Virus record (IMG/VR): IMGVR_UViG_3300037963_002654
Span: 1 to 21,683 of that record
From: a virus
DNA: 21,683 nucleotides
Strand: one strand, 5' to 3'
Shown here one piece after another: positions 1-21,340 of this stretch. A program made the position numbers and the translations under genes. The notes beneath the pieces were generated by a model. The model ran no database searches and was not told the origin of the DNA. It saw only the letters and a list, made by a program, of their open reading frames with translations. The stretch's first letter is position 1. Each line of letters starts with the position of its first letter.

Positions 1-828
1 CCACCATTCTTTAGTCCACTTATAATAAGCGACACCTAGTGTTACAGATAGTTCTTTTTGTAGCCCCAGCTTTTCTAGTTCACTATCATTGAAGTCATCT
101 ATGGCGTTACCAAAATGGTACTCCATAAACTCTCCTGTTGTGTGAGCCACTTGTACTGAGTCTCCACCAGACACATCAAACCAATCATAATTCACGTAGT
201 TCCCCTGCATCCATTGTTCGCTTACATAACCAAAATCTTCTGCTATAGCTGTAAATGGTGTTACCGCGGGGTCCCAAAACTCATATATTGGTAAAAAGCC
301 GTATGCTGGGTGTATTCTAAATGCTCCTCCTAGTGTAAAATCCCAATTACCCACGTTTTTGCGCCATTTAAGCTCAGATAATACATATTTAAGGTCTACC
401 CTTTGGTTGTCTACAAATTGTGCTTTAAAAACGTACGAATCACTCAAATAACGTAAGAAGAAATCCTGATTTATGTACTCTTCGCCTCTATCTCGTATTA
501 ATGATATATTTGCCAAGTACTCAAAGCCCTTAGCATTCCCTATAGGCGCCTTATTAGACATAGTAGACTCTGTTCCGTCATAAAAGGACTTTATTTTGCC
601 CTCATAGTCAAAACGAGCCACTTTGCGCCAACCCAATGTTATATTATAATCATATGGATTAATTTCTGTTATATCTATAAGTTGTTTGTTTTCTATTTTA
701 AACATGCCGTCTTCTAAGGTAGAAGAACCTATTGTTGAAGACGCATAAAAAGTAGAATACTTAAAGAAGTTTTGAGAGCTACAAACCGTAGCCAATAATA
801 CAAAAAATAATAATATCTTTTTCATCAT
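1..828 (-). CDS. Signal-peptide-bearing beta-rich protein, 3' end missing
   Basis: Translating the minus strand from the ATG at 828 gives 276 codons with no stop before the left edge, so the C-terminus lies outside the window. The protein begins Met-Met-Lys-Lys, followed by a hydrophobic stretch (ILLFFVLLATVC) and a Ser-Ser-Gln-Asn region, a typical Sec signal peptide. Cleavage near SSQ is plausible. There is no good lipobox, because Val precedes the Cys. The mature part is rich in Tyr, Trp, Phe and Asp with alternating polar and apolar residues, as in outer-membrane barrels or secreted beta proteins. A second in-frame ATG at 825 could be the true start. A TATATTTG box lies at 830-837, almost touching the start. 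I do not recognise a named family. It could modify the host envelope, exclude other phages, or be a virion protein carrying a signal-like N-terminus. Confidence 0.8.
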   Translation of the reverse strand, partial: MMKKILLFFVLLATVCSSQNFFKYSTFYASSTIGSSTLEDGMFKIENKQLIDITEINPYDYNITLGWRKVARFDYEGKIKSFYDGTESTMSNKAPIGNAKGFEYLANISLIRDRGEEYINQDFFLRYLSDSYVFKAQFVDNQRVDLKYVLSELKWRKNVGNWDFTLGGAFRIHPAYGFLPIYEFWDPAVTPFTAIAEDFGYVSEQWMQGNYVNYDWFDVSGGDSVQVAHTTGEFMEYHFGNAIDDFNDSELEKLGLQKELSVTLGVAYYKWTKEWW

Positions 829-829
829 A

Positions 830-837
830 CAAATATA
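830..837 (-). promoter_or_regulatory. Promoter-like TATATTTG box before the signal-peptide gene
   Basis: The minus strand reads TATATTTG, which fits the TAnnTTTG -7 consensus known for Bacteroidota housekeeping promoters. It sits in the 20-base gap between the 335-aa gene and the signal-peptide gene. No clear TTTG -33 box is visible at the usual distance. If it works as a promoter, transcription would start at or next to the ATG at 828 or 825, giving a nearly leaderless message. The surrounding 17 bases match the element at 4435-4442 with one mismatch. Confidence 0.35.
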
Positions 838-848
838 CAAATTAAAAT

Positions 849-4457: not shown

Positions 4458-7400
4458 TTACTTTGCCATGGTTGTTGACGTCTCCTTTCTTTTAACCAAA
4501 TCTTTAATAAACTGAGGCATTAGCTTAATAAAGTTACCCTTGTATTTAGGTTGTCCTTTTTCAAAATATGTTGTATCTCTTTGATACTTAGAGTTTGAAA
4601 AAAAGTTTTGCACAGTGTCAGTAACGTTTTTACCTGTAGCTAACATAGGTGGAGCAGCCATATAATGTAATCTTTTTGGGTTACCTAACAAGAATAAATC
4701 TCCTAATAATTGTTTTGCTTTCATCAACATAAACCCATCGTTATCATCATCGCCATCAAAACCTCCGCTTAACACCATAAATGCTAGTATAATTAAAGTA
4801 GCCTTACCGCCTCTTACAGCTCTTTTAAGGGCTTCTTGCTGATATTCTGGTAAGTTTTCAAATCTTTTACCCTCATAGTTAAGAGCTCTCATAATTTCTC
4901 TTAAATCAAAATCACCATCTTGCCACATTTCATTTAAAAAAGTTCCAGTCATTCTTAAAGAACCAATTTGCTTTTTACCAAATCTATCCACTCTTTCTCC
5001 GCCTAATCTATCCATAACAAATGTGGGAAACCATCTTTTAAACTGCAACAGACCATTTATAATAAAATAGTTTTGCATTAACCTTTGGTCTGTAGCTGTA
5101 TAACCTCTACCTTGCACACTGTATACATTATCTTTCATTTGTTGTGCGTCTTTTTCTATAGAAGCAAAATCAGCCTCTCGTCCTTCTATTACTTTTATCT
5201 CTCCATTTTCCATAGTAAAAGACTCCCATTGCTTTTGTGTTAATTGTGAAATAAAAGCTGTTCTTTGTATGTAATCCTCAGAACCAGTCATAAAGAAGAA
5301 TAAAAAGTTTCCTATTGGACCAGTAAATAATCCCTCTGTAGTTTGAGCTGAAGAGTCTGCCAACAAACCATAGTAATTAGTTATACCCCACACTTTATTA
5401 TTTCTAGTTCCTTTAGACCTTTTCATTTCTCCCCAAAATCTTCCTTCACCTATTTTCATGGTTGTAAAACCAGCCCTTCTATATTCATTTATCTTACCTA
5501 TTGCTATATTAGACACAGCAACAGCAGGTTTAAGCGCTAAGCCAACAAACATTGTCCATTTCATTAGCATTTCTGCAGCCATATCAGCATAACTTTTTCC
5601 CTCTCCTTCTTTTGCTACTAAAGAACGTTTGCCCTTTTGGAACAACCAAGTGTCTTTATATAATTCCTTAACCCATCTTTTAGCTAATGGATTGTTTTTA
5701 AAAGAACTATAAGCTATAACACCATCTATAAGAGGTAATAACTCCATAGCGCCTTTAAATGAATATCCTTTTGCATTACCATACTTACTATCTAAACCAT
5801 GTGCAAATAAATTCTTTTCAATGTATTTGTTTAAGTTAGTATGTATATCATATGAAGCTAAGAACTCTGAGTTACTAGAACGACCAGCTAAATATCTATT
5901 TATATTTTCTCCTGTGCTTAAGTTTTCTACATTTTCTACTTTAAAAGCAGTCTTACCTTTAGCGTCTATTCCTGTTTTTAAATGACCTTGTGCTTTTCTT
6001 TGTAAAGCTTTTATTTCATTTTTCATTCTATAGTCAGACATAGACAACCCTTTGCCCTTTTGGGCTATCATATAATCATTAATGAATTGACCTAATGGTT
6101 TGGTTTCGTTTTGACCTGACAACGGATTAGTTCCATTTACATTTATACCTCTTAGTGTAGAGTCGTAATTAAAACCTATAAATGTAGCCGTCATATTTCT
6201 AGCCAACATAGTTTCAAGGTATCCACCTGCACGATTAGGTATATACATTCTGTCTCTCTTTTCTTTTAGAACTCTTTGTCCATCAGTTCCTGTTTTATTG
6301 TACATATGGTCAGCAAACATTCCTGTTGTGTCCACATACATTCTGTAATAGTCTTGTTCCGCTTGAGAAAGTTCAGCGTTATCCATTTTAGATTGGCTAA
6401 CTGTTCCGTCTTCATTTAAAAAGTCTTTCATTTTTAAAACCCTATAGTAAACCCCATCCTTATCTGTCTCAACCTCACTCATAAGATTACCAAATATATG
6501 TTTGTTCATTATTTTAAAATGTCTTACATATGGTATAGCTTGATAAGCAAATTTAGTAATCCACCAAGGTATTATTTTGCCACCAAACTTTTCTTTTAAT
6601 AAGCCATCAAAAGCCTGTTCAGTTTTGTTTTGTATTTTAGCAAGGTCTCTTCTGTATAATGTTTCTGCCTCTTCTATTTTTCTTAACATACCAGCTATCT
6701 CTTGTCTTTCTTGTGTTGACACATCAGGAGATAACCATAGGTTAGCATAGGTGATGTCTTTAAAGCCCTTATAACCACTTTTTATTTTCTTTCTGTCTTG
6801 TTTTATCTTTTCTATTTCTTCCACAGTTAAACCTGGATTAGACTTAACAATCTCATCTATAGATAACACAGATACTTTTACAGCTAAAACTTTAACTAAG
6901 TTGTTGTATAGTTTTCTTCTAGCCACTTCATCTAGGGGGTAGATTTTGTTTTTTATTATTTTATATATATCAGAAACTTTATACTTTCCCTTTTCTATTT
7001 CTACACCGCCCATTTTGTCTGGCTTTAAGTACATGTTTTCTAATCTTCTTACATCGTACCAATCATCTTCATACTTCTTGTATTCTTCTTTTACCTTAAC
7101 TCTATCCTTATCAGATAGTTTATTGTGGTCAGCGCCATTGTATTTAGTTCTTACATAATCACCAAAAGCAAGCTTCTGCATATTAGAATTAAACTGGTCT
7201 TCTTCTTCTACTAATTGATACATCTCTGTAGAACCAAACCTACCATCAGTGTCAACTATCTCTCTTCCATCTTTAGTTTTACCTAATACTTTATTCATTT
7301 CTGTTTCCTGCATAGAAGTATCTTCTAGCATAAACATTTTACCCTTAGTTCTACTGTCTCTTACAGGAGCTTCATTGCTAGGTATAGTTTTATCTCTTAA

Positions 7401-10400
7401 CACAGAGTTGTCTATAGGGGTTAGCATTATAGCTCCTGGCGTCTTTTCAACCATAGAGGTGTTATATAAAACAGAAGCCATATTACCACTTGAACTTGGT
7501 AAATTTACTTTTACTACAGAATTGTAAGGAAGACTTTGGTTTGTCATCACTATAGTTTTGCCGTCTTTTTGCACACTCATGTTTTGTCTAATTCCAGCAA
7601 GCCTAATGTTTTCTGTTGCATCAAAAATATATTCTTTATTATTTATTAAAGCATCATTAGCTAATTGCTCTACAGAAACTTTAGATAAAGCTCCAGAATC
7701 TAAATCTGACTTAGAATTTAATACGTTTTGTCTTGTTGCTTTTGTAACAGCTTTTCTCATATCACCATGTAAGTATGGTCTTAGTGTAGCTGGACCAGAA
7801 TGATTGTTCTTTATTAAATCATATAGATATAAAAACTCTTGAACATCTTTGGGTAGCTTATTAAACTCAGCAGCTATATCTTGTGGCCTCATTGTTTTTA
7901 GAAGCTCTGCATTAGGAGAAACAACATATTCTGTTCCTGTTTTGTGTGAAACATTTTCTAGCACAGGTTGTCCGTCTTTTATTTTAATAGCAGAAACATC
8001 TCCCTCACCTTTATATGTAAAGTATCCTTGTGGATTAGCTACTTTTTTAATATGTAAAAACTTAATAAACTCATATCCACTTTCATTTCTTAAAGAATAA
8101 ATGTGTTCTAACACCCTGTTCATTGTGTAAACCAATGGCATTGAATTGTCGTGAACATCAGTCTTTTTTGATTCCTCTTTTACTTGTGCTTCATTTTTAG
8201 CATCTACAACTTGTGTGTTTAAAATATTACTTAACATCTGTGATGGGTTAATATTTTTATATGCATCAGATTGCATAAGTCTAGATGTCCTTACTCTGCT
8301 TTCTATACTTTTAAGACCTTCTACCATTTTCTTTAAAGGAACGCCTTTTAGAAGCTTAGAATTATATATAGAATTAAGTGGGAATATTTTATTAATTACT
8401 TGATAATAACTACCTGTGTATGCAGGGTCTATTTTTCTTTGGTTGTCTACTGCTTTTAGTAGTGTTTCAAAGTTTCTTTGTAACATTGGGTTTGTAAATG
8501 TTACATTGTTTTTAATAAAGTTTACATCTCCTGTGTAAAGTTTTTCTTTTAATGTTTTTAAATCTGACTCTGTAGATATAATTTCACTTACATTTACACC
8601 ATCTTCTCCTATTTTTTCTAATGAAGCTACCCTATCACCCTGAGGCTTATCTCTCATTTTTCTAGCTCCTGTAGCCAAAGTAATAAGGCTGTCAATCATT
8701 TCCACACCTTCTACTGCTGTTTCTTTAAGATTAGTATCTAAACTAGCCAACTCTCTTATAGCGTCTAAACTTTGCTTAGATGCAAAATCATTTGTTTTTA
8801 ATATTAAACGAGCAGCATCTACCTCATTGTTTATACTTGTTAAGTTTCTGTTAATAAAATCTTTATAGCTTGCATTTTCTCCTAAATCATCTCTTAAATT
8901 ATCTATTACAGTTTCTCTTGCTATAGCAGTAATGCTTGAACCAGATAGTTGAGCTTGTTTTACTAAAGCTTTTACAGATGGATTATTAATAGTCTTTATA
9001 ACATCTGTTAAAGAAACGTTTCTTGATATCAGCTCTGAAGCTAAACCAAATGTATGCTCGTTTAAATTAAGCATAGTAGCATAGCCTTTATTAGCGTTGT
9101 CTAAGAACATGTTTAAAACATACGCTAGATTAAGCCAAGCGTTACCAGAGTCTTTATAAGAACGGCCAACCTTTTTGCCAAACAAAGTTAAATTAAGTTC
9201 ATGTCCCGCCGCGTTACCTGCGCTAAGTATTTTGTGACCATTATTATATGTAGCAGAAACACCTATCATAGCACCACTACCTATATTAGATATAAACGTA
9301 TCTCTATTGCCTAAAAGAGACAAATCATTCAAAGAAGACTCTTTAATATTTAGATTTTTTATTACGGTTTCTAACTCATTAATACCTGCCTCTGTGTATT
9401 TTTTGTTTCTACCATCTTTTAAAAACTTTGTCATATTTTCAAAAGCATCATTCCAAAGCTGTTTTTCCGCACTTACCTTACCAGTTCTGTCTTTAGGGTG
9501 TCTACCTATAATATGTAGCGCATCACCATCTAAGTCAGAACCTAGTATATCAGATGTAACAGAAGATATAGCAGCCATAGTTCCCATACCTCTAGTTATT
9601 TGTTGCACTGTACAAACAACTCCATCACCTAGTTTAGATGTTGGTATTCTTTGCACAATTACCTCGTCATTAACCTTAAGCTTTAATCTTCTTGCTGTAG
9701 AAGCATCTAATACTATGTCTGCGTTTTGTTCTACATCACCTGTTTCTTCATTTCTTTTATAATGGTTTAATCCATCTACACTTCTTCCTTCTATTCTTAT
9801 ACCATAATCTGTAGATTGTACGCCTAATCCACCTGGACCTCTAGTTTTTATAGCCTCTCTTATAATATTGCTTTTAACTATATTTCTAAGAGCGCCAAGA
9901 GTTCCGCTGTCTAAACTACCGCTTTTAAGTAAATCAATAACAGAAGAACCATAAGTATCTATATCAGCTTTATCAAATACATTTTCTAATATACTAGTTA
10001 AGCTTTCATCATTAAGATGTCTTCTAGTAGAGCCAAACTTAGAAAAAACAGCTTTTGTTTTTTTCTCATATGCAGAAATCAAAGATTCCATTATGTTATT
10101 AGCTTGGTCTATTAGTTCAGGGTTAGAGTAAAACATAAAGTTTAACTGTTTAGACACAGAAGCATCATCTGCTCTTTTATCTAATTCAGTTTGTATACCT
10201 AAATTGCTACCATCTAAACCGTATTGTAAATTGCCATTGGTATCTTCAAAAGCAAATAACTCATCTTGAAACTCATTAAATGTATCATTGTCCATCATGC
10301 TTTGCAACTCCTCTACACTTTTAAGCTTACTGTCTATTCCTGTTTCCTTAGAACCAAGAACTTTATTAGCAGACCTAAACACAATCATAGGTAGAGTTTT

Positions 10401-13400
10401 TTTAGCACTACCTTGTGTAGCAACTTCTCTTACTCTTAATGCGTCCCTAAGTGTTGCAAACTTTGGGTTGTCTTCAACAAACTTATCCGTTAAAACAAAT
10501 GTGTTAGTCTTTAAATAAAAAGGATGTCTTGACCCCACTTGACTTTCAAATGTAGTGTTGTCTAAGTTTTGACCATAGTATACAAACTTAAAGTGCTTAC
10601 CTACATTTCTAGCTTCACCATACTTTTCTCTTATCATCTCTGCATTTTCTGGTAAAATAAATGAAGCAGCATCAGTCATATTTATTTTTACATCTTTTCC
10701 GTCTACCTTAATTGTTTGTTCTACATCTTTTAACATTATAGGCTCAAGTCTTACATCACTGCCTATACCTACAGACATAGCTACAGAACCAGCAGCTCTT
10801 TTAATGTAGTCAGAAAACCCTGGCTTATAATATTTTTTTGGCCCTATAAATAAGTCTTTGGCATAGTATTTGTTTATTGCATAGTTTAGAGCTATTTGTT
10901 CTATTTGAGGACCAGATAAATTTTCAAGCTCTTTATACTTTCCAGCAAGCTCACGAGTAATTAAATTAATTGCGTCTTTAGCAAACTTATTAGCATCGCC
11001 TTTAAATAGTTTTTTGGCCACTCTTTGTGCTTGTGTAAGATTATATAGCGGTGCATTGTTTAAATGTAAATCAATACTCTTATCACTAAAAATAGATATA
11101 GATTGACTATATGTTTGTTTACCACCCTTTATAGCAGAAAGTATTTCTCCTATTTGTAAGGCTGCCATTTCATTTGCAGTGGCACCATTGCTATCAAAAC
11201 CTTTTCTTACGCCATCAATATATATATTCCCACCAATAACTTGTCTTATATCTGGTTTAGTTCCATTCATTAACAATCTTTTAATAATATGATTATCTGG
11301 GAATAAAGCTTTTAGTCTTTCCTTTCCTCCAGGCGTATCATATAGATTGTCTATCTGTTTAATCAATGTGTCTATCTGATGTGTTTTAGATATATTAGCT
11401 GTCATTTCTCCTCCTGGCATTTTTACCATAGAATCAAATTGACCAAAAGCTAAAGCTTGTGTTACACTTTTTGCAACAGAGTTTAGTGTAGGCAAAAACC
11501 CTCCAATCTTTTTTACATCTATTTTATCTGCTCTTTGTGTACGTCCATCTTTAAGTGTGACTGCGCCATATCTTTGTAGTTTTGTATCTCTATCTAAGGA
11601 CTTTTGCCCCAATCCTTTTAGTTTCTTTAAACGGTTTTTATATTTATTAAAAGCACCGTCTACTCTAAACAGCGACGTTTCTTGTATAAGTTTTAATGCA
11701 TTATCTTCTACAATATTAGTAACTGCATCCGTGTCCATTAAATCAACCGCTTCTATATTTTCTTTTACTATATCGCTAGTAAGATTGTCGTATATAAAGT
11801 TTGCTACAAGTTCGCGTTTTTGTCTATTGTTGTTTGTGTTTTTCAAAGCTTGCTCTAAAGCAACTATGTCTTTTAAATAAGTATTAAATCTTACGCTATC
11901 TTTAAATTCATTTTGGAATACATTTTCTATGTCTTTTCTTCTAGATTCTTCTGATTTAGAATACGCTTCTCCCAAAACAACTTGAGCACCTTTGTGTGGA
12001 TTAAGTGAAGATTTGCCATTTTCATTCATGTAGTAAGACAACCAATTAATTCTTTTGTATCCACTTATCTCATGGTGTAGGTGTGCTAATACACGAGACA
12101 TGTTATCTCCTGTTTCCCAGTTGTTGTTTTTATATGTTTGTTCAACAAACTTTAAATAACGAACCAACACTTCCTCAGAAATCTTTCTGTCTTTTCTAAA
12201 TTGCTCAGCCCCTTTAGTGTCAAACTCTTTAATTAAAATTTGTGCGTTTTCTATAAACTGATTTTTATTAGCAACGCTATCTTTAATATGTATAGATGTC
12301 CACAAAGCTCTTCTTGCTTCTCTTTCCAAATTCTTTACACCATCTATTACGGGGGCTAGTCTAGCAAACTCTTTAGCCCATTTAGATAGTTTCTCGTTTT
12401 CTTTATTACGAGTTTCTAAATACATATCCACTACATTAAACTCTTCTCCCAGCATTTCTTCATCCACTTTTTCTGCTTCTCTAGCGCCTAGCTTTTCAAA
12501 CACTATCTCATTAAAATATTGTCTTCTGTTTCCTTTAGACTCATAGTTAGACATTTGGTATTGGTCTATGGCTTTATTTGCGCCACTAGCATCCCCGTTA
12601 TATAAAGCATCCATTCTTTCGTCAATATTTTTCATATTGTCTTTTACCCACTGTATATATCTTTTTTTAGTTGCAGCAAGCGGTTTACCATGTAGCTCTA
12701 TTTCAGAATCTATTTCTTGTTGAAAACCCTCTTCTCTCCATAAACTACCTAGCTCTTGTTTAACTATACTAGCCACACCGTTATCATAATTCATAAATTG
12801 TTCTTCACCTATGTGAGCCATCTTTCCATCTAACCCTTCTCTATCTCTTCTAAACTCAAACTTTCCATCCTTACCTTCTAACTGAGCATTGTAATCATTT
12901 AAAACATCTTGAAGTATTTGCTTATTGTTAACAAGTTGTTCATTACCAGTTTCTTTTAATATTTTTTCAGAGTCTTCTTTTGTTAATCTACCTTTAGCTT
13001 TTCTCCAAAACTTTTTAAGATTGTTTTTTACTCTAGTAGATTTAGATGTATCTATTAAAGAGTTCAAGTCCTGGTCTGTTTTAGATTTAGCTATTAAAGC
13101 AACTACAGACTCTTCTAGTATAACTCTTTGTTCTGCATCAGGCAAGACCTCTAATCCTTTCTTTTCTGCTTCTTTAATTACATAGTCAATGTAATCACTT
13201 TTAGTTTTATTAGGGTTCTTTTTTAAATATGCTTTATCTGTTAATATGTTGTCGCTTTCAAAGACTATATCTCCAAGATTTTTACCACCCTTAAACATTA
13301 TCTTATGTCTATATAATTCTTTTGCCTGTTTAAATACAGGTTGATTAAGAACTATTTTTTTCAATGCTTTTACAGAAGGGCTATCCCAAAACTCCATCAA

Positions 13401-16229
13401 ATACACGTGAGCTAATTCATGAAAGTAAGTTTCTTGTGTAGCCTTATCTGCATTAAGATAAATAGATAATCCTTGTGACAATCCCCAATACCTCATTCCA
13501 TTTTTAGTTTTAGCAAAGTGACTATACACCATAAGGTTTATACCCTTCTTTTTTAATCTTTCTCTAAAGATTGCTTCTATACCATAGTTACGCTTGGTGT
13601 TAATAACTTCGCCATTAACTTTTAATTGATATGTGTCTTCTGTAGTTTTAGACTCTTGCTTAGAGTCTTCATTTAAAGAGTGCATTTTATCCTGCCTTCT
13701 TTTTTTAGTAGCTTCTTTCTTTTGTTTCCAATTAGACTTACGTTTCTTTTTCTTTTGTTCTCTTTGCTGTATAGTTTTTAACTCTTTCTTTCTTTTTTTA
13801 TTAGCTTTGTTTTCTTCTTTTTGAGCTTGTTTTAAAGCTGTTAATTCAGACTGCACTTCAGGTAACTCTACTTCACTTTCTTCTATTTGCTTTTCTAATT
13901 CTTTTATTTTTTGTTTTCTATTTTTAGTGTCAAGTTTTCTTGATTCAACAAGTCTTTCTTCATTTCTTGCATCCTCCATGTCTTGTTCCTCAAGTTGAGC
14001 ACTTAAATCATCTTGTTGTTTGTCATCTTTCTTTTGTTGATTCTTTGCGTCAATAGCATCTGACTGCTCTTGTAAATCATTCAAAGCGTCTTTCCTAACT
14101 TGTTTTATTCCTTCTTGATAACTTTCTATAGTTGCGCTTGTTGCCTCTTGTGCTGTTTGTTGTTCAGCTTTTATCTTTTCTATCTCTACCTTCTTATCTG
14201 CTTCCTTTCTAGTGTTATCATTTTTTACGGCTTCTATTTGTGATTCAAAAGTTTGATTAACTTCTGTGGCTACCTTTTTTTCCATAGCTATATTATAAGC
14301 AAGCCTAGCAACTTCTTTTCTATATTTAGTAGGCATACCTTTTAAATTAGCATTTTGAAATGACTCATAAGACTCAGCCATATCGTCCATTAGCTTAATG
14401 GCTGCATCTCCCTCTTGTCTTGTAAGTTTTTCTTTTTGTACTAAATGTTCTATTCTTTCTTTGCCAAGCTGAACATCTCCGTTTACAACTGAACCAAGTA
14501 TGGCGTTTTCAATAACCTTGTGTTTTTTATTAATAGTTATTTCTTCTTGTGAATACGGACCTTCTCCTGTTTTTTCTTGATTCTTTAATTTTTCTAATGC
14601 CTCTACAAAAAACAATCCAGAACCCCCCTCGTCAAATCCAGAAGCTTCTATTTTTTCATCTATAATGTTTGCTGTAACGGCTGCGTCACTAACAACACTT
14701 TTTACCACACCAAAAGAACCCATACCAAAACCCATACCAAAAGATACAAGTCTAGTTTCTGCGTGCTTGGGGTCGTGGTAATAATCCCAATAGCCTTGTG
14801 GTTCCTCTCCCTTCATTAAGGCAAGATTACTTTGAACTCTCCAGTCTTGATATATTTCTTGAAACTCTTCCATTTTACCAGAAGCAACAGCTTGACCACT
14901 ACCCACCATAAAACTTGCCAAAGAGTTTTTAAACGTCACCCCTGTTCCCAACTTCATTTTAGAAGCCTTTCTCATTCCCGCAGGTATCATTCCTAATCCC
15001 TTATCAAAAATTGAGTATTGAATGGCATCAATCATCATATATTTTGCGTTGTCCCTCATAACTTGTAAGCCAACAATAGCAGCTTGGTCTGAAGTTAACC
15101 CCTGTTCTAAAGCTTGCTTGTGAGCGTCTCCTGCAAGAACTGCCCCTTCTGATAGGTTTGCCCCTAAACCTTGTCCAAAAAACCTAGCAGCCTTTTGTCC
15201 AGTAAACTTAGAACCTAAAACTTTTTTACCTACTGCTAAAGCTCCTTTTGCTAAATGCGTTTTCCCTATTACTGAGCCAACTCTAGTAGTAGTGGCCGCT
15301 GCTGCTGCTGCGCCCCCCAGTCCACCTGTAAGAGCAAACATTGCCATGTTGGGAATTTGTTTTGCCACCTTAGTAAGCCAAAAATCTGCAACTAATAATT
15401 GTGAGTAGTCTACTTTAGGGTTACCTTCTTCATCAAATTTAACAAAATTACCTCCATGTTCATCTTTAAATTGTTCTTCTATATCATCATCTACTGTTTC
15501 TAACGCATTCCCTACGCTTCGTAAAACATCTGTAAAAGAAGAAAGCATATCTATTCCTGTAAAATACTCAAACGCATTAGCTGCAATCATAGCTGGATTA
15601 GCTCCTGAAGCAAAGTCCTCTCCTCTTTGATAAGGAGTGCCATCAGGATTAGCTTCGTCATAAATACTTCTACCTTGGTCTTCAACCCCTGTAGCCATAT
15701 GACCCACACTATCTATCCAATCAACAACATCTGCAGTAGCAGTAAACAGTTGAGAACCAACTCCAGCAACAATACTTCTTGTTAGCTTTCCTACAGCAGA
15801 ATAGTTTTTGTCAGATGAAAAATCTGAGTTTGCTGCAGCTAATTTAGTTGCTTGCGAATGATAATCGCCCACTCCTAATAAATCAAAGTTATTACCAACA
15901 TTACCCTGCATTATTGCAGCTTGCATAGCAGCTTCTCCACTGTCGTATCCCACTGGAGACTCATACCCCTCCATAATATCTATTGGGTCAAATGTGTCTT
16001 GTTCTATAAAGCCATACTTACCGTCTTCTGGTTTAACTTGTGATTCTGGTTGTGTAGGTGTTACGGGCATTCTTGTAGAAGATGCCGTTGTAGAAGCAGG
16101 AGCTTTAAAGATTTTTTCGTAAGATGGGGACATGTCATTAATTGCCTGAGCAGGCGTTTTCCCTTTGTCGTATTCTGCAACGCCCTCTTTTGAAGGTATT
16201 GCTCCTTTAAAAAAATTAATATCTGCCAT
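4458..16229 (-). CDS. Giant 3923-aa multidomain phage protein with RNAP-like DxDGD loop and HExxH motif
   Basis: One uninterrupted frame encodes 3923 residues. Visible parts in order: an Ala/Gly-rich hydrophobic region around residues 290-540; a charged coiled coil at about 650-865 ending in a very basic stretch (about 809-847); HELAH at 937-941 with Glu pairs at 1039-1040, as in zinc metallopeptidases; and QRIPT (Arg 2194) followed 38 residues later by DLDGD (Asp 2232, 2234, 2236). That last layout resembles the R-x-P-T to NADFDGD segment of the RNA polymerase beta-prime double-psi barrel, and the DxDGD loop of crAss-like phage and QDE-1-type polymerases. NNGHK (about 2330) and DNANKGY (from 2377) follow. 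Near the C-terminus are hydrophobic segments (about 3550-3580, 3634-3650, 3809-3824) and an acidic DGDDDNDG loop at 3825. The gene follows the 611-aa gene by five bases. It may be a large polyvalent or virion RNA polymerase protein that is ejected into the host. Polymerase activity is inferred, not shown. Confidence 0.8.
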   Translation of the reverse strand: MADINFFKGAIPSKEGVAEYDKGKTPAQAINDMSPSYEKIFKAPASTTASSTRMPVTPTQPESQVKPEDGKYGFIEQDTFDPIDIMEGYESPVGYDSGEAAMQAAIMQGNVGNNFDLLGVGDYHSQATKLAAANSDFSSDKNYSAVGKLTRSIVAGVGSQLFTATADVVDWIDSVGHMATGVEDQGRSIYDEANPDGTPYQRGEDFASGANPAMIAANAFEYFTGIDMLSSFTDVLRSVGNALETVDDDIEEQFKDEHGGNFVKFDEEGNPKVDYSQLLVADFWLTKVAKQIPNMAMFALTGGLGGAAAAAATTTRVGSVIGKTHLAKGALAVGKKVLGSKFTGQKAARFFGQGLGANLSEGAVLAGDAHKQALEQGLTSDQAAIVGLQVMRDNAKYMMIDAIQYSIFDKGLGMIPAGMRKASKMKLGTGVTFKNSLASFMVGSGQAVASGKMEEFQEIYQDWRVQSNLALMKGEEPQGYWDYYHDPKHAETRLVSFGMGFGMGSFGVVKSVVSDAAVTANIIDEKIEASGFDEGGSGLFFVEALEKLKNQEKTGEGPYSQEEITINKKHKVIENAILGSVVNGDVQLGKERIEHLVQKEKLTRQEGDAAIKLMDDMAESYESFQNANLKGMPTKYRKEVARLAYNIAMEKKVATEVNQTFESQIEAVKNDNTRKEADKKVEIEKIKAEQQTAQEATSATIESYQEGIKQVRKDALNDLQEQSDAIDAKNQQKKDDKQQDDLSAQLEEQDMEDARNEERLVESRKLDTKNRKQKIKELEKQIEESEVELPEVQSELTALKQAQKEENKANKKRKKELKTIQQREQKKKKRKSNWKQKKEATKKRRQDKMHSLNEDSKQESKTTEDTYQLKVNGEVINTKRNYGIEAIFRERLKKKGINLMVYSHFAKTKNGMRYWGLSQGLSIYLNADKATQETYFHELAHVYLMEFWDSPSVKALKKIVLNQPVFKQAKELYRHKIMFKGGKNLGDIVFESDNILTDKAYLKKNPNKTKSDYIDYVIKEAEKKGLEVLPDAEQRVILEESVVALIAKSKTDQDLNSLIDTSKSTRVKNNLKKFWRKAKGRLTKEDSEKILKETGNEQLVNNKQILQDVLNDYNAQLEGKDGKFEFRRDREGLDGKMAHIGEEQFMNYDNGVASIVKQELGSLWREEGFQQEIDSEIELHGKPLAATKKRYIQWVKDNMKNIDERMDALYNGDASGANKAIDQYQMSNYESKGNRRQYFNEIVFEKLGAREAEKVDEEMLGEEFNVVDMYLETRNKENEKLSKWAKEFARLAPVIDGVKNLEREARRALWTSIHIKDSVANKNQFIENAQILIKEFDTKGAEQFRKDRKISEEVLVRYLKFVEQTYKNNNWETGDNMSRVLAHLHHEISGYKRINWLSYYMNENGKSSLNPHKGAQVVLGEAYSKSEESRRKDIENVFQNEFKDSVRFNTYLKDIVALEQALKNTNNNRQKRELVANFIYDNLTSDIVKENIEAVDLMDTDAVTNIVEDNALKLIQETSLFRVDGAFNKYKNRLKKLKGLGQKSLDRDTKLQRYGAVTLKDGRTQRADKIDVKKIGGFLPTLNSVAKSVTQALAFGQFDSMVKMPGGEMTANISKTHQIDTLIKQIDNLYDTPGGKERLKALFPDNHIIKRLLMNGTKPDIRQVIGGNIYIDGVRKGFDSNGATANEMAALQIGEILSAIKGGKQTYSQSISIFSDKSIDLHLNNAPLYNLTQAQRVAKKLFKGDANKFAKDAINLITRELAGKYKELENLSGPQIEQIALNYAINKYYAKDLFIGPKKYYKPGFSDYIKRAAGSVAMSVGIGSDVRLEPIMLKDVEQTIKVDGKDVKINMTDAASFILPENAEMIREKYGEARNVGKHFKFVYYGQNLDNTTFESQVGSRHPFYLKTNTFVLTDKFVEDNPKFATLRDALRVREVATQGSAKKTLPMIVFRSANKVLGSKETGIDSKLKSVEELQSMMDNDTFNEFQDELFAFEDTNGNLQYGLDGSNLGIQTELDKRADDASVSKQLNFMFYSNPELIDQANNIMESLISAYEKKTKAVFSKFGSTRRHLNDESLTSILENVFDKADIDTYGSSVIDLLKSGSLDSGTLGALRNIVKSNIIREAIKTRGPGGLGVQSTDYGIRIEGRSVDGLNHYKRNEETGDVEQNADIVLDASTARRLKLKVNDEVIVQRIPTSKLGDGVVCTVQQITRGMGTMAAISSVTSDILGSDLDGDALHIIGRHPKDRTGKVSAEKQLWNDAFENMTKFLKDGRNKKYTEAGINELETVIKNLNIKESSLNDLSLLGNRDTFISNIGSGAMIGVSATYNNGHKILSAGNAAGHELNLTLFGKKVGRSYKDSGNAWLNLAYVLNMFLDNANKGYATMLNLNEHTFGLASELISRNVSLTDVIKTINNPSVKALVKQAQLSGSSITAIARETVIDNLRDDLGENASYKDFINRNLTSINNEVDAARLILKTNDFASKQSLDAIRELASLDTNLKETAVEGVEMIDSLITLATGARKMRDKPQGDRVASLEKIGEDGVNVSEIISTESDLKTLKEKLYTGDVNFIKNNVTFTNPMLQRNFETLLKAVDNQRKIDPAYTGSYYQVINKIFPLNSIYNSKLLKGVPLKKMVEGLKSIESRVRTSRLMQSDAYKNINPSQMLSNILNTQVVDAKNEAQVKEESKKTDVHDNSMPLVYTMNRVLEHIYSLRNESGYEFIKFLHIKKVANPQGYFTYKGEGDVSAIKIKDGQPVLENVSHKTGTEYVVSPNAELLKTMRPQDIAAEFNKLPKDVQEFLYLYDLIKNNHSGPATLRPYLHGDMRKAVTKATRQNVLNSKSDLDSGALSKVSVEQLANDALINNKEYIFDATENIRLAGIRQNMSVQKDGKTIVMTNQSLPYNSVVKVNLPSSSGNMASVLYNTSMVEKTPGAIMLTPIDNSVLRDKTIPSNEAPVRDSRTKGKMFMLEDTSMQETEMNKVLGKTKDGREIVDTDGRFGSTEMYQLVEEEDQFNSNMQKLAFGDYVRTKYNGADHNKLSDKDRVKVKEEYKKYEDDWYDVRRLENMYLKPDKMGGVEIEKGKYKVSDIYKIIKNKIYPLDEVARRKLYNNLVKVLAVKVSVLSIDEIVKSNPGLTVEEIEKIKQDRKKIKSGYKGFKDITYANLWLSPDVSTQERQEIAGMLRKIEEAETLYRRDLAKIQNKTEQAFDGLLKEKFGGKIIPWWITKFAYQAIPYVRHFKIMNKHIFGNLMSEVETDKDGVYYRVLKMKDFLNEDGTVSQSKMDNAELSQAEQDYYRMYVDTTGMFADHMYNKTGTDGQRVLKEKRDRMYIPNRAGGYLETMLARNMTATFIGFNYDSTLRGINVNGTNPLSGQNETKPLGQFINDYMIAQKGKGLSMSDYRMKNEIKALQRKAQGHLKTGIDAKGKTAFKVENVENLSTGENINRYLAGRSSNSEFLASYDIHTNLNKYIEKNLFAHGLDSKYGNAKGYSFKGAMELLPLIDGVIAYSSFKNNPLAKRWVKELYKDTWLFQKGKRSLVAKEGEGKSYADMAAEMLMKWTMFVGLALKPAVAVSNIAIGKINEYRRAGFTTMKIGEGRFWGEMKRSKGTRNNKVWGITNYYGLLADSSAQTTEGLFTGPIGNFLFFFMTGSEDYIQRTAFISQLTQKQWESFTMENGEIKVIEGREADFASIEKDAQQMKDNVYSVQGRGYTATDQRLMQNYFIINGLLQFKRWFPTFVMDRLGGERVDRFGKKQIGSLRMTGTFLNEMWQDGDFDLREIMRALNYEGKRFENLPEYQQEALKRAVRGGKATLIILAFMVLSGGFDGDDDNDGFMLMKAKQLLGDLFLLGNPKRLHYMAAPPMLATGKNVTDTVQNFFSNSKYQRDTTYFEKGQPKYKGNFIKLMPQFIKDLVKRKETSTTMAK

Positions 16230-16234
16230 GCTTA

Positions 16235-18070
16235 TTATTCTTCATAAAGATTACTTAGCGTTTGATAGCCATCTATAATTGCAAGTAAATCTCTTTGTAA
16301 TTTGTTTGCCTCTTTTTTAGACATTTTGTTATTATTTTTAAACACATTAATATATCCAGAAACATCTCCTTCTTTTAATTCGTTTAAAGCCTCTTTCATT
16401 ATTGGGTCTTGAGACGTTGTCAAAGCTTGAATAAATTCTTGTGGAGCAACTTCATCTTGAGTCATGCTTAATGAATGAGCCATTACTGTAGAATAAACTA
16501 ATGGGTCAAAGGTTGTTATGCCCACAGATTTTAACGAGGTTTGTAAACCATTATGTAACGTAGTTATAGCTTGTTTTGGTCTATCCCCTGTAAAAGAAAA
16601 CTTTTCTCCAGGATTATACACGTATTGCCCTGGCGAAGTTTCTGCTACAGCTTTAGACCTATACTCCATTTCACCAACTGCTTTGTCTAGTTTTTGTGCC
16701 ATGTATGGATTATTAATATCAATTTCCAAATATACAAAATCATCTTTACCTCCTAAACTAACACCTCTATCTTTATCTCTCATTGTTATAATAACAGTAC
16801 CGTCTTTAGATTTGTTTTTATATAATTCAGAACCATCACCTTCAGCAGACACGTCATCATATGTTAATAACTTTTTCTTTCCAGTATCGTGGTCGGTTGT
16901 TACTTTAAACCCATACTGTATTCCCATTACATCTAGGTCGTCTCCATAAGACCAATTAAATTGTTCACCTTGTGACAAAGCATTACCATCTGTATCATAA
17001 GCTTTTACAGTTCCTCTTTGTATAAGTGCATTAATATTGTCTCTATTTATTTTACCATTGTAATCCTTTTTTTGCATATCAAACAAACTAGAGATAACTT
17101 CTGATTCTTGCCCCACAAACATATTACCAGCATATACTTGTTGTTCACCCTGTTGAGCAAATGTGGTTAATCCTGTTCTTTGGTTTAAATTATATAAAGC
17201 ATTTTTATTTAAATCATCTTCCCAAAAACTATTCCAATCGCCTGTAAAACCTCTATTAATATTATCTCCAACTATAAGTAGCTGGTCAGATGCTTTTTTA
17301 GAATTATTCATATGGCCACTAACTTGCTGCTGAAAGTCAACAGGAGTGGCAGAAGGTTGTTGAGTTTGATTTACATAATTTATTAACTGGTCTGTGTTAA
17401 TTTCACTATAAGTTAGATTTTGATTTGTGTCTATATTATAGTTATATAAAGCTGTGTCTAAATTTTTCTGAGCATTCTTTCCGCTAAATAAAGCGTGAGC
17501 ATAACTAGGTTGCCCTTGAAGTTCTTCTGGGCTAGGTTGTTCATATTGTTGTAAATTACCATGAAACACAAATGCATTATGCTCCCCAGTTTTCCACTTT
17601 TCAAAACCCTCTCTATCTATGTTAGAAACTAGGTGTGGTTTATTTTTTGTTAAATCTAAATACTTAGCTATATTAGCGTGATTACTTCTTATTGTTTGAG
17701 CTTCTTCACTCATTAAAACAGCATCTCTATATTGCCTTAAATGATTCATTCCCCCGCCTTTCATAAAAGCAGTTATATCGTCTCCATAAAACTTAAGTTG
17801 TTCTTTAATAGTATCTTCAGCGTTTGCTGCCACTACTCTCATTTTTTCCAAATCCTCTGGTCTATAATGTCTGGATAACTCTTCAGCTTCATTTATTGAT
17901 AATTGCAAAACCTGGTCTGCTGCTTCTGCATTTGCCTGTTCAATTTGACTAGCCTTATTGTTAGCCTCTAGAATTTTAAGTTCAGTATTAATTGCGTTTT
18001 TAGCCCTATTACGACCTTCTTGTGCCGCTGAAGACCATCCGCCTATAATGTTATTCCAATTTACTGCCAT
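16235..18070 (-). CDS. Probable internal virion (ejection) protein of unknown family
   Basis: The 611-aa protein has no recognised family. Residues 1-130 are predicted helical and rich in Ala, Glu, Asn and Gln (for example KNAINTELKILEANNKASQ). The middle is Gln/Asn-rich (about 170-340), and a more beta-like region with many Asp, Gly and Tyr follows (about 350-480). The C-terminus is again helical, ending near NLYEE. No signal peptide, membrane segment or catalytic motif is seen. It is set between a lysozyme-domain protein (12-base gap) and the giant protein (5-base gap). In podoviruses and crAss-like phages, large proteins in this position are internal core or cargo proteins ejected with the DNA, so a similar role is inferred here. 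Confidence 0.6.
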   Translation of the reverse strand: MAVNWNNIIGGWSSAAQEGRNRAKNAINTELKILEANNKASQIEQANAEAADQVLQLSINEAEELSRHYRPEDLEKMRVVAANAEDTIKEQLKFYGDDITAFMKGGGMNHLRQYRDAVLMSEEAQTIRSNHANIAKYLDLTKNKPHLVSNIDREGFEKWKTGEHNAFVFHGNLQQYEQPSPEELQGQPSYAHALFSGKNAQKNLDTALYNYNIDTNQNLTYSEINTDQLINYVNQTQQPSATPVDFQQQVSGHMNNSKKASDQLLIVGDNINRGFTGDWNSFWEDDLNKNALYNLNQRTGLTTFAQQGEQQVYAGNMFVGQESEVISSLFDMQKKDYNGKINRDNINALIQRGTVKAYDTDGNALSQGEQFNWSYGDDLDVMGIQYGFKVTTDHDTGKKKLLTYDDVSAEGDGSELYKNKSKDGTVIITMRDKDRGVSLGGKDDFVYLEIDINNPYMAQKLDKAVGEMEYRSKAVAETSPGQYVYNPGEKFSFTGDRPKQAITTLHNGLQTSLKSVGITTFDPLVYSTVMAHSLSMTQDEVAPQEFIQALTTSQDPIMKEALNELKEGDVSGYINVFKNNNKMSKKEANKLQRDLLAIIDGYQTLSNLYEE

Positions 18071-18082
18071 AGTTGTTTAATT

Positions 18083-21000
18083 TTATCCTCCTGCATTGTT
18101 AGTATTTTGCTGTGCATTTGTTATGTTTTGTTGTAATTGTTTGTTAGTAGCTTGAGCTTCTTCTAACATTCTAGTTAAGCCAGAAGAAATATTTTGCTGT
18201 TCTAACATTCTTTGAAAAGCTGCCATTTGTCCCGCGTTATTAGCTTTTTCAGTTGCATAAGTAATTTCACCTAAAGCGTGTTTAATATACTCATTTCCTA
18301 AAGAACCATGTAAGGCAGATTTTCTCTCCGCTTCAGAATAAGCCATTTTTCTATCTATTTCTCCAACCATTCTTCCATGTTCATTTTGATATTGTACAGC
18401 TGTTCCTAAGGCTTTTAAATTGTCTTGTTGCATTTTAGCGTCCATAGCATTAAGCTTTAATAGACCTTTAATTCTATTTGCATTTAACACTCCCGCATTA
18501 GCTAAAAACATAGCTCTATTTCCACCTGAAGCTCTTGCTACATTTTTAACGCCTAAATTATAAGCTGTAGATAAATCACTTTGGGCAGCAGCTTTTTGTT
18601 CTGCGCTCATACCTGATTGAGCAGCCTCTCTCATTTTAGCCATATACCCTTTCCAAGCAGCGTCTAATTGACGACCTTCTTCTACTGGTATATCTTTCAT
18701 TGCCTCCTTAACATGTTTTCTCCCCTGTGACAAAGCTAATAAACCCATTGCTGTATTTGCTAATCCTCTAACTCCTCCTAAAGCTCCAAGAACCTTACCT
18801 GTTGTAGTATCAGCAAATCCTTTTTTTAATGGAACATCTCCACTTCCATCTCCACCTCCATCTACTACTGATGTTTTTGGCGCACCCAATTCTTCTTCTC
18901 TAGCGTCAATCGCTGCTATTCTATCATCTATAAGTTGCTTTTGCCAAGGAAGCATATAGGTCATATCTTGTGAAGATATTTGATTTCTATATGCATCAAA
19001 CTGCGCAGTATCATCACTTTGTAAAACCTTTCTGTAAGATGCATCAGCATCTGCTCTTGATTTATTTTCTCTTGTTACATCTGCAAGCATTGTTTTTTGC
19101 TCTTGAAGAGCATTAGCATATTCATCTCCCTCTAAACCCGACTCTCCTGATTCAAGTCTTTTTATTTCATTTTGAGCAGCAGTCATTTCTGAAACAAGCT
19201 GTTCATTTGTTAATGCAGATAAATCTGTAATTGGTTTAACCTCATTGCCCTGTTCATCTGTAATAACTCCAGATTTAGCATCAATAACTTTATTTGAGCC
19301 AGTAATACTTTCAATAATATCAGATATACTTTGGTCTGGACTTGTTCTAAATTGATTTGCAACTACTGATAATTCTTGTTGAATTAAATTATCAAATTCT
19401 ACAGGGTCTTTGGCAAGAAACTCTTCTGTAAAATTACCATTTTTGTCAACAAATTTTTTTAAAATAGGATTTTCAGATATAAGTTTTTTATATTTCTCTC
19501 TTTGTTCGGTTTCTTTATCCCCCATGAAAAACATCCTACCTGTAGACATGTTAAAGTTTGAGTCTTGTAACATGTTTTTAAAACTAGTATCAAATAGTTT
19601 TTTGAATTCACTTTTATCACCAAGGTCTTCTCCCGTAACAAGATTAGCATAATCGTTAGCTGAATCTCCACTTACAGTATTTATAAAGTGAGCAACAACA
19701 CCTCTACCAAGCCACATGTCCTCAACATTATTTGACATATTGTTTAGACTAAATGTTTCGCCATCATCAGTTGTGTAGCTAAGATAATTCCCTTCTTTTA
19801 AAAATTTAAAATAATTTTCTCTTGCTTTGTCGTCGTCTTTAAAAAACCCCTTTACTCTACTTTCATCTTTACCGTATTTTTCATAATATAATTTACTCCC
19901 CTTTAATATATTAGCCTCTAAACTTTCTCTTTCTTTTTTAGAAATTTTAGTATCAAACCACACTTCTTCACCTTTAGCAACCACCTTGCCAGCTATGTCA
20001 TATTTTGTGTTTTGATTAGAATCTTTTGCATATTTAGGGAAAAGATTTTTGTAATCTTCTATTATTTGATATGCATTTATTATAGAACTTTTATCATCTA
20101 TTATACCACCCTCTTCTAAATACTTTGTGTTATATTTTTCTGAAACAGAACTAGGATTGTTTAAGCTTATCATATCATCAGAAACATAATCAGAGTCTTC
20201 ATCTCCCACTGACAACATAGAGTTTCTGGCTATAAATCTTTTTTTTGTTGGCTTGTCTTCTGTAACTTCCTCTTCATCTCCCCCCGCTTGTCTAATTAAA
20301 TTAGCTCCAGTGTTGTTTTCAATTTTACTTAAAAGTATAGGTTCTAATTTTACAGGGTCTTCTTTAACTTTTACTTGGTCACCAGAAGCAGTAACCAAAT
20401 AACCAGGATAAGGCTTTCCTGTTGCAGGGTCTATCATGCTTTCAGGAACCTCATTTAAATCTATATTACCGCTTTCATTGCTTGTTGCTGTTCCCGTTTG
20501 GTTATTATCAACTTCAGTTTCTGGAAAGTTTAACCTTCTCATTTCATCAAAATCTACAGAAGCATCTCCCGTCTTTTTTAACCTTCTCATTTCATAAGTG
20601 TCTGTTCCAAGCTCTTTTTTTTGAGGAGTTTGAAGATTTTCTAAATTTAAAGTGTCTTTATATAGATTTAAACTATCAGAATTATTATGTAGCTCATATT
20701 TTTGATTTAATCTATTCTTTAATACAGAACTTGAGTCAGGATTTTCACCTGGATTAATATAGGTGCTTCTAAGATTTTCAGCAGTAGTATTGTTAAGCAC
20801 TTCTGACGTTAACTTATCTCCTTCTTTATATTTTTTATAATACAATAAAGAAAACTCTACACCAAAATCATAATCATTTTTAACTTTATTTAATAGCTCT
20901 TGAGGGTCCATTCCATTAAAGTCCTCTTTGGCCATTTTTGTAATTATTTGGTCAAAGTTTTGCAACCCTCCGTAATTAGCAGAAGTTACCTGTAAAGCTC

Positions 21001-21340
21001 CATATCCCCCCGCAGAAGTGGCTTTTTCATCACCTTGATACAAAACTCCATTGCTTTCTTGAACACTTAGTTTATCCCAAATAGCTTTTGCTTCTGGACC
21101 ATATGGGTTATCTATATTGTGTTTTATTTGAAACCATTTAGCAAGGTTTTTGTTCATACTTCTTAAATTACCCTTTCTGTTTTCAAGGGTTTTAAGAGTG
21201 TATTTATTTTCTGTAGTATGTTTAAAGTCGGTTTCAATGTCAAAATTAGCCATTAAAGCCGCAACACCATTTTCATTAATGTCAGGATAATGTTTTTGAA
21301 TTAACTTAACTATTTGTTGTTTTCTATCTTTACTAGCCAT
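18083..21340 (-). CDS. Virion protein with N-terminal lysozyme-like domain
   Basis: The 1085-aa protein starts with a domain resembling phage tail lysozymes and related lytic hydrolases. A helix GVAALMANFDIETDF (residues 25-39) holds a candidate catalytic Glu36, and GGYGALQVTS at 111-120 matches the usual GYG-x-xQ-x-T substrate-cleft segment. Such a domain would open peptidoglycan during DNA entry. The middle is long, acidic and poorly conserved in appearance, with two EMRRL motifs at 250-254 and 266-270. A helical part lies at about 715-780 and a Gly-rich linker near 825-838. The C-terminal 240 residues are helical, Ala/Gln-rich and end in an Asn/Gln-rich tail, as in internal virion proteins. 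Its ATG overlaps the preceding stop by eight bases. This resembles the T7 gp16 principle (lysozyme on an ejected core protein), but the homology is not established. Confidence 0.7.
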   Translation of the reverse strand: MASKDRKQQIVKLIQKHYPDINENGVAALMANFDIETDFKHTTENKYTLKTLENRKGNLRSMNKNLAKWFQIKHNIDNPYGPEAKAIWDKLSVQESNGVLYQGDEKATSAGGYGALQVTSANYGGLQNFDQIITKMAKEDFNGMDPQELLNKVKNDYDFGVEFSLLYYKKYKEGDKLTSEVLNNTTAENLRSTYINPGENPDSSSVLKNRLNQKYELHNNSDSLNLYKDTLNLENLQTPQKKELGTDTYEMRRLKKTGDASVDFDEMRRLNFPETEVDNNQTGTATSNESGNIDLNEVPESMIDPATGKPYPGYLVTASGDQVKVKEDPVKLEPILLSKIENNTGANLIRQAGGDEEEVTEDKPTKKRFIARNSMLSVGDEDSDYVSDDMISLNNPSSVSEKYNTKYLEEGGIIDDKSSIINAYQIIEDYKNLFPKYAKDSNQNTKYDIAGKVVAKGEEVWFDTKISKKERESLEANILKGSKLYYEKYGKDESRVKGFFKDDDKARENYFKFLKEGNYLSYTTDDGETFSLNNMSNNVEDMWLGRGVVAHFINTVSGDSANDYANLVTGEDLGDKSEFKKLFDTSFKNMLQDSNFNMSTGRMFFMGDKETEQREKYKKLISENPILKKFVDKNGNFTEEFLAKDPVEFDNLIQQELSVVANQFRTSPDQSISDIIESITGSNKVIDAKSGVITDEQGNEVKPITDLSALTNEQLVSEMTAAQNEIKRLESGESGLEGDEYANALQEQKTMLADVTRENKSRADADASYRKVLQSDDTAQFDAYRNQISSQDMTYMLPWQKQLIDDRIAAIDAREEELGAPKTSVVDGGGDGSGDVPLKKGFADTTTGKVLGALGGVRGLANTAMGLLALSQGRKHVKEAMKDIPVEEGRQLDAAWKGYMAKMREAAQSGMSAEQKAAAQSDLSTAYNLGVKNVARASGGNRAMFLANAGVLNANRIKGLLKLNAMDAKMQQDNLKALGTAVQYQNEHGRMVGEIDRKMAYSEAERKSALHGSLGNEYIKHALGEITYATEKANNAGQMAAFQRMLEQQNISSGLTRMLEEAQATNKQLQQNITNAQQNTNNAGG
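20529..20595 (-). repeat. In-frame 19-base direct repeat encoding two EMRRL motifs
   Basis: The plus strand shows TTTAACCTTCTCATTTCAT at 20529-20547 and again at 20577-20595, offset by 48 bases (16 codons). Both copies are in the reading frame of the lysozyme-domain protein and give EMRRL at residues 250-254 and 266-270. Identity at the DNA level, including third positions, suggests recent duplication of a short segment rather than independent convergence. Confidence 0.75.

Follow-up and report, generated by a model that had tools for sequence, protein, structure and literature searches.

The window, that is, the whole stretch of 21,683 nucleotides of viral DNA analysed here, contains one giant open reading frame (ORF) that very probably encodes a crAss-like virion RNA polymerase, with packaging into the particle judged from homology to phage phi14:2. 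Phages of the crAss-like group carry a two-barrel RNA polymerase in their particles, which is used for reading their own first genes. The ORF (4458..16229, minus strand) codes for a single chain of 3923 aa comprising an HExxH segment, the RNA polymerase and a gp65-like C-terminus. The preliminary description had envisaged a very large single-chain polymerase in what it took to be a flavobacterial phage. The single chain was borne out, but giant size is not new among two-barrel phage polymerases (crAss-like phages, P23-45), and the protein of the window is a divergent variant of this known kind. In crAss-like phages, virion polymerases fused to large proteins have been noted before (PMC10770324), and a DxDxD motif in their large proteins has also been described (PMC7886860).

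Catalytic motif of the giant ORF

The two motifs pointed out in the preliminary description, QRIPTS with Arg2194 and SDLDGD with its Asp triad 38 residues further on (Arg2194 to D2232), were located at these positions in the single ORF. R2194-I-P2196 lies at 9642..9650 on the minus strand (Arg2194 codon 9648-9650), and D2232-L-D2234-G-D2236, the predicted metal-binding catalytic loop, is encoded at 9522..9536 on the same strand. Each of these active-site residues has its counterpart in phi14:2 gp66, namely R1322, P1324, D1361, D1363 and D1365. DxDGD occurs only once in the 3923-aa protein, and shuffled versions of the protein contained 0.08 DxDGD per sequence. The complete pattern, RxP followed after 30-45 residues by DxDGD, appeared at a rate of 0.00095 per shuffled protein, or about 1 in 1000.

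Homologues and conservation

The window belongs to a virus record of 51,078 bases. Single-sequence searches with the polymerase protein against phage records (including tblastn), PHROGs, Pfam and the PDB gave nothing useful, and two viral scans with this protein alone were unproductive, probably owing to too few shared exact peptides. Relatives were reached via the portal protein instead. The portal query led to 48 related viral contigs, and a relative of the polymerase region was encoded in 11 of the 25 records searched; a profile search then raised the number of such relatives to 28 loci. After removal of near-duplicates, the alignment comprised 24 sequences, i.e. the window and 23 homologues, the complete or nearly complete of which are 3712-4637 aa long. 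Because the single-sequence searches were empty, identification of the polymerase rests on this 24-sequence profile and on the structural model. A motif-based scan of genome contigs detected no cellular or prophage copy. Polymerase relatives with R-x-P and then GSDLDGDMLH were also observed at L095, L096, L100, L104 and L105; the three contigs tested (those behind L095, L096 and L104) had no portal match and possibly represent a second lineage or incomplete contigs.

Conservation of the Asp residues in homologues had been named beforehand as a check that could refute the polymerase reading. D2232, D2234 and D2236 were identical in all 24 sequences, as were R2194, P2196, G2230, S2231 and G2235, and likewise K1787, K1810, R1811, D1853, K1881, K1907, K1956 and Q2028. 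Meanwhile, identity to the window over the polymerase region fell to 19% in this alignment. The portals of six distant phages of the same set are 52-56% identical to the portal of the window, and between phages with portals of this similarity the polymerases are only about 20-25% identical. Thus, the polymerase has diverged far more rapidly than the portal while keeping its active site unchanged.

The loop itself reads D[L/M/K]DGD in the lineage of the window, versus D[F/Y]D[I/V]D in the named phages where it was found; in cr126_1 it was not found by pattern. Leu in DLDGD had been considered unusual, which does not hold, as relatives carry Leu, Met or Lys at this position and Arabidopsis RDR2 also has 830-DLDGD-834 (PMC8713982). 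The statement that crAss-like polymerases share a DxDGD loop had to be dropped as well, since the crAss-like phages compared mostly have DFDID or DFDVD.

Profile and fold of the polymerase core

The modelled RNA polymerase core covers residues 1590-2620 (8370..11462, minus strand). When the 24-sequence profile was used in hmmsearch, 6vr4 (phi14:2 gp66) was matched with E=5e-20. P23-45 gp96, whose loop is DFDGD (PMC10770324), came next with a weak match (0.02-0.06) aligned at this loop; with an earlier 11-sequence profile, the P23-45 tape-measure polymerase had already been the top match. Alignment of the core to gp66 by hhalign gave a probability of 98.

The AlphaFold2 model of the core reached a pLDDT of 83.6 and a pTM of 0.81. 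In Foldseek against the PDB, 6vr4 was again the top match (E=7.5e-23, TM-score 0.64 over the query), followed by RDR2, QDE-1, P23-45 gp96 and P32 gp64. The rmsd to 6vr4 amounted to 13.9 A over 1532 columns, a high value to which the much greater length of gp66 may contribute. Isolated double-psi barrels were matched as well, and against predicted viral proteins the matches were mainly large crAss-like phage proteins, while the T7/N4-type palm-fingers-thumb fold was absent among the fold matches listed. Profile and fold thus agree with the original reading of the motif as an RNA polymerase catalytic loop. The preliminary description had further set the presence of an upstream barrel as a test, and the Foldseek matches to 6vr4, RDR2, QDE-1 and P23-45 indicate that this barrel is present in the AlphaFold2 model. 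Hence, the model supports the placement of both double-psi barrels in one chain, unlike cellular beta and beta-prime, which are separate subunits.

The first, beta-type barrel would span approximately residues 1815-2035 (10125..10787, minus strand) and includes the invariant K1881, K1907, K1956 and Q2028; its boundaries, taken from predicted strands and the alignment to gp66, are approximate. The second, beta-prime-type barrel would extend over approximately residues 2129-2245 (9495..9845, minus strand), likewise with approximate boundaries. A trigger-loop region was assigned to residues 2369-2390 (9060..9125, minus strand) by alignment to phi14:2 Lys1615, the trigger-loop Lys of gp66 (PMC8713982). 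N2373 and D2377 are invariant in this region, and a Lys is found at 2380 or 2381 in all 24 sequences, i.e. at the same position as Lys1615 or one past it.

Other segments of the chain

Ahead of the polymerase, a zincin-like metallopeptidase is predicted at residues 885-1060 (13050..13577, minus strand), with HELAH at residues 937-941 (13407-13421) and Glu1040. H937, E938, H941, Q1034 and E1040 are invariant in 23 sequences, and E1040 is likely the third ligand of the HExxH segment. The model of this segment (pLDDT 69, pTM 0.39, no PDB match) is too poor to name a fold.

The C-terminus, residues 3446-3880 (4590..5894, minus strand), is homologous to the C-terminal part of phi14:2 gp65, with hmmsearch E=7e-13 and an hhalign probability of 96.5 (E=1e-9). 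gp65 of phi14:2 is annotated as an RNA-polymerase-associated protein.

Near the other end, a hydrophobic segment at residues 274-331 (15237..15410, minus strand) is weakly and tentatively similar to residues 154-208 of phi14:2 gp67 (hhalign E=1.3e-4, probability 53%; hmmsearch E=8e-5 over 35 aa). A full gp67+gp66+gp65 fusion is not claimed: the gp66 and gp65 parts are clear, and the gp67 part is a weak match of 55 residues.

Genome context and lineage

The terminase, portal and capsid genes of the record belong to crAss-like families; the terminase matches PHROG 6681, and the portal shares about 27% identity with portals of Crassvirales (150 records). The genes are arranged in the order terminase, portal, capsid, tail, large tail-tip-like protein, cargo and polymerase, which resembles phi14:2. 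Two proteins next to the polymerase were assigned by position only and have no family match, namely a 611-aa likely cargo or ejection protein (16235..18070, minus strand) and a 1085-aa likely internal or cargo protein (18083..21340, minus strand). A SAGGYGALQ stretch in the latter is reminiscent of lysozyme-like transglycosylases. IHF and genes 74/75 are a genomic signature of Crassvirales; the 141-aa gene at the IHF position matches only phrog_12177 (function not assigned).

Several further observations were made along the record. At window positions 1-840, an ORF that runs off the record starts with the signal-peptide-like MKKILLFFVLLATVCSSQ and perhaps encodes an exported protein. A 2057-aa protein at L001:3375-9548, in the muzzle/tail-tip position, matches crAss-like virion structural families. 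At L002:8583-10861 (record 48583-50861), a glutamine amidotransferase gene adjoins an amidoligase gene, as in phi14:2. Runs of unknown bases, which are assembly gaps, occur at L001:653-2281 and about 3375.

In a tree of portal proteins, the window grouped with 19 relatives in a separate clade (support 100/100), which lies apart from the Steigviridae, Suoliviridae and Intestiviridae sampled for this tree; Crevaviridae and the epsilon and zeta groups had no members in it. As the branches between families are long, the sister group of the clade is uncertain. Genomes of the lineage are about 65-71 kb. The close relative IMGVR_UViG_3300030330_004628 (L117; 70,840 bases) has a direct terminal repeat of 113 bases, and its genome, of about 70.7 kb, is therefore probably complete. 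It carries one giant polymerase ORF only, and in size it falls below most of the crAss-like phages listed in the portal comparison, which have roughly 92-104 kb.

Comparison with known two-barrel polymerases

The closest known system is gp66 of phi14:2 (PDB 6vr4; Crassvirales, Steigviridae), which is likewise a single-chain two-barrel polymerase with a trigger-loop Lys and with R-I-P separated by 38-39 residues from the Asp triad. It occupies the same place in the virion gene block, and the next gene, gp65, is homologous to the C-terminus of the window's protein; both gp66 and gp65 were annotated from virion proteomics. However, gp66 has 2180 aa rather than 3923 aa and DFDID rather than DLDGD, and gp65 is a separate gene that contains the HExxH, which gp66 lacks.

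The window encodes HExxH, polymerase and gp65-like part in one ORF, whereas the named crAss-like phages examined use two or three genes. In Steigviridae, separate genes are used. Intestiviridae (Carjivirus MW067002, crAss002 gp33) have proteins of 4090-4250 aa in which the polymerase is also fused to a gp65-like C-terminus, but the HExxH protein is a separate upstream gene and the loop is DFDVD or DFDID. In Suoliviridae (cr55_1, cr118_1, cr10_1), the proteins of 4460-4950 aa carry HExxH ahead of the polymerase as in the window, but the gp65-like part, where found (cr55_1, cr118_1), is a separate downstream ORF, and the loop is again DFDVD or DFDID. gp33 of Flavobacterium phage Fpv1 (4401 aa) is also a giant virion protein with HExxH in the same chain, and its polymerase motif falls in the region that phi14:2 gp66 matches in the sister phage Fpv2. 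Its loop is DYDID, and HExxH follows the polymerase. Because neither the A2 nor the A4 profile matched Fpv1 gp33, we treated it as a more distant relative.

Outside the crAss-like phages, gp96 of Thermus phage P23-45 (5002 aa) is another giant virion protein with a two-barrel polymerase and a metallopeptidase domain; unlike the protein of the window, it is a siphovirus tail tape measure with a clampless polymerase, and the similarity is much weaker. Arabidopsis RDR2 and Neurospora QDE-1 share the single-chain two-barrel fold, but are cellular RNA-dependent enzymes of RNA interference, with Foldseek E of about 1e-6 only.

Discussion

In the reading that we favour, residues of about 1590-2620 would make up a DNA-dependent RNA polymerase whose two double-psi barrels lie in a single chain, and the beta-prime-type barrel would carry D2232, D2234 and D2236 for binding of the catalytic Mg2+. 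Homology and synteny with phi14:2 suggest that the protein is packaged in the capsid. By the same homology, its ejection would precede or accompany that of the DNA, and it would transcribe the first genes of the phage, presumably from promoters. The HExxH segment is metallopeptidase-like and may act as a peptidase.

A polymerase of the same fold could also be a non-virion enzyme, like YonO or P23-45 gp64, which would be produced in the infected cell to transcribe middle or late genes. Non-virion polymerases of the P23-45 gp64 type are indeed among the fold matches, but the virion enzyme 6vr4 is the best match by far, the C-terminus matches the virion partner gp65, and the gene directly follows cargo and tail genes, an arrangement shared with phi14:2, whose gp66 is a virion protein; we thus regard this explanation as unlikely. 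Loss of activity is still less probable. The very fast divergence noted above would suit a polymerase-derived structural protein serving only packaging or ejection, yet the three Asp, the Arg-x-Pro, the invariant Lys and the trigger-loop Lys were all kept in 24 of 24 sequences despite this divergence. As long as a single sequence without a family match was at hand, a chance motif in an unrelated large structural protein might have been suspected. The profile and fold matches already refute this explanation, and together with the invariance in 24 sequences and the low rate in shuffled proteins they leave it a negligible probability.

For the favoured reading of a virion polymerase, we tentatively propose, at somewhat less than even confidence, that the whole transcription cargo (metallopeptidase, polymerase and gp65-like partner) became one polypeptide of about 4000 residues in this crAss-like lineage, and that it is either ejected whole or processed by the peptidase that it contains. 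The D-x-DGD loop of this chain would have kept the Gly of cellular enzymes, versus Ile or Val in the other crAss-like phages compared.

The finding extends the crAss-like virion RNA polymerases to a divergent lineage, in which the polymerase is invisible to ordinary sequence searches. Such a compact one-chain version could reveal how polymerase, peptidase and partner work jointly in ejection. As its loop at the active site is closer to the cellular form than the loops of the other crAss-like phages compared, this polymerase also bears on the kinship of single-chain phage polymerases with cellular RNA polymerases and with the polymerases of RNA interference.
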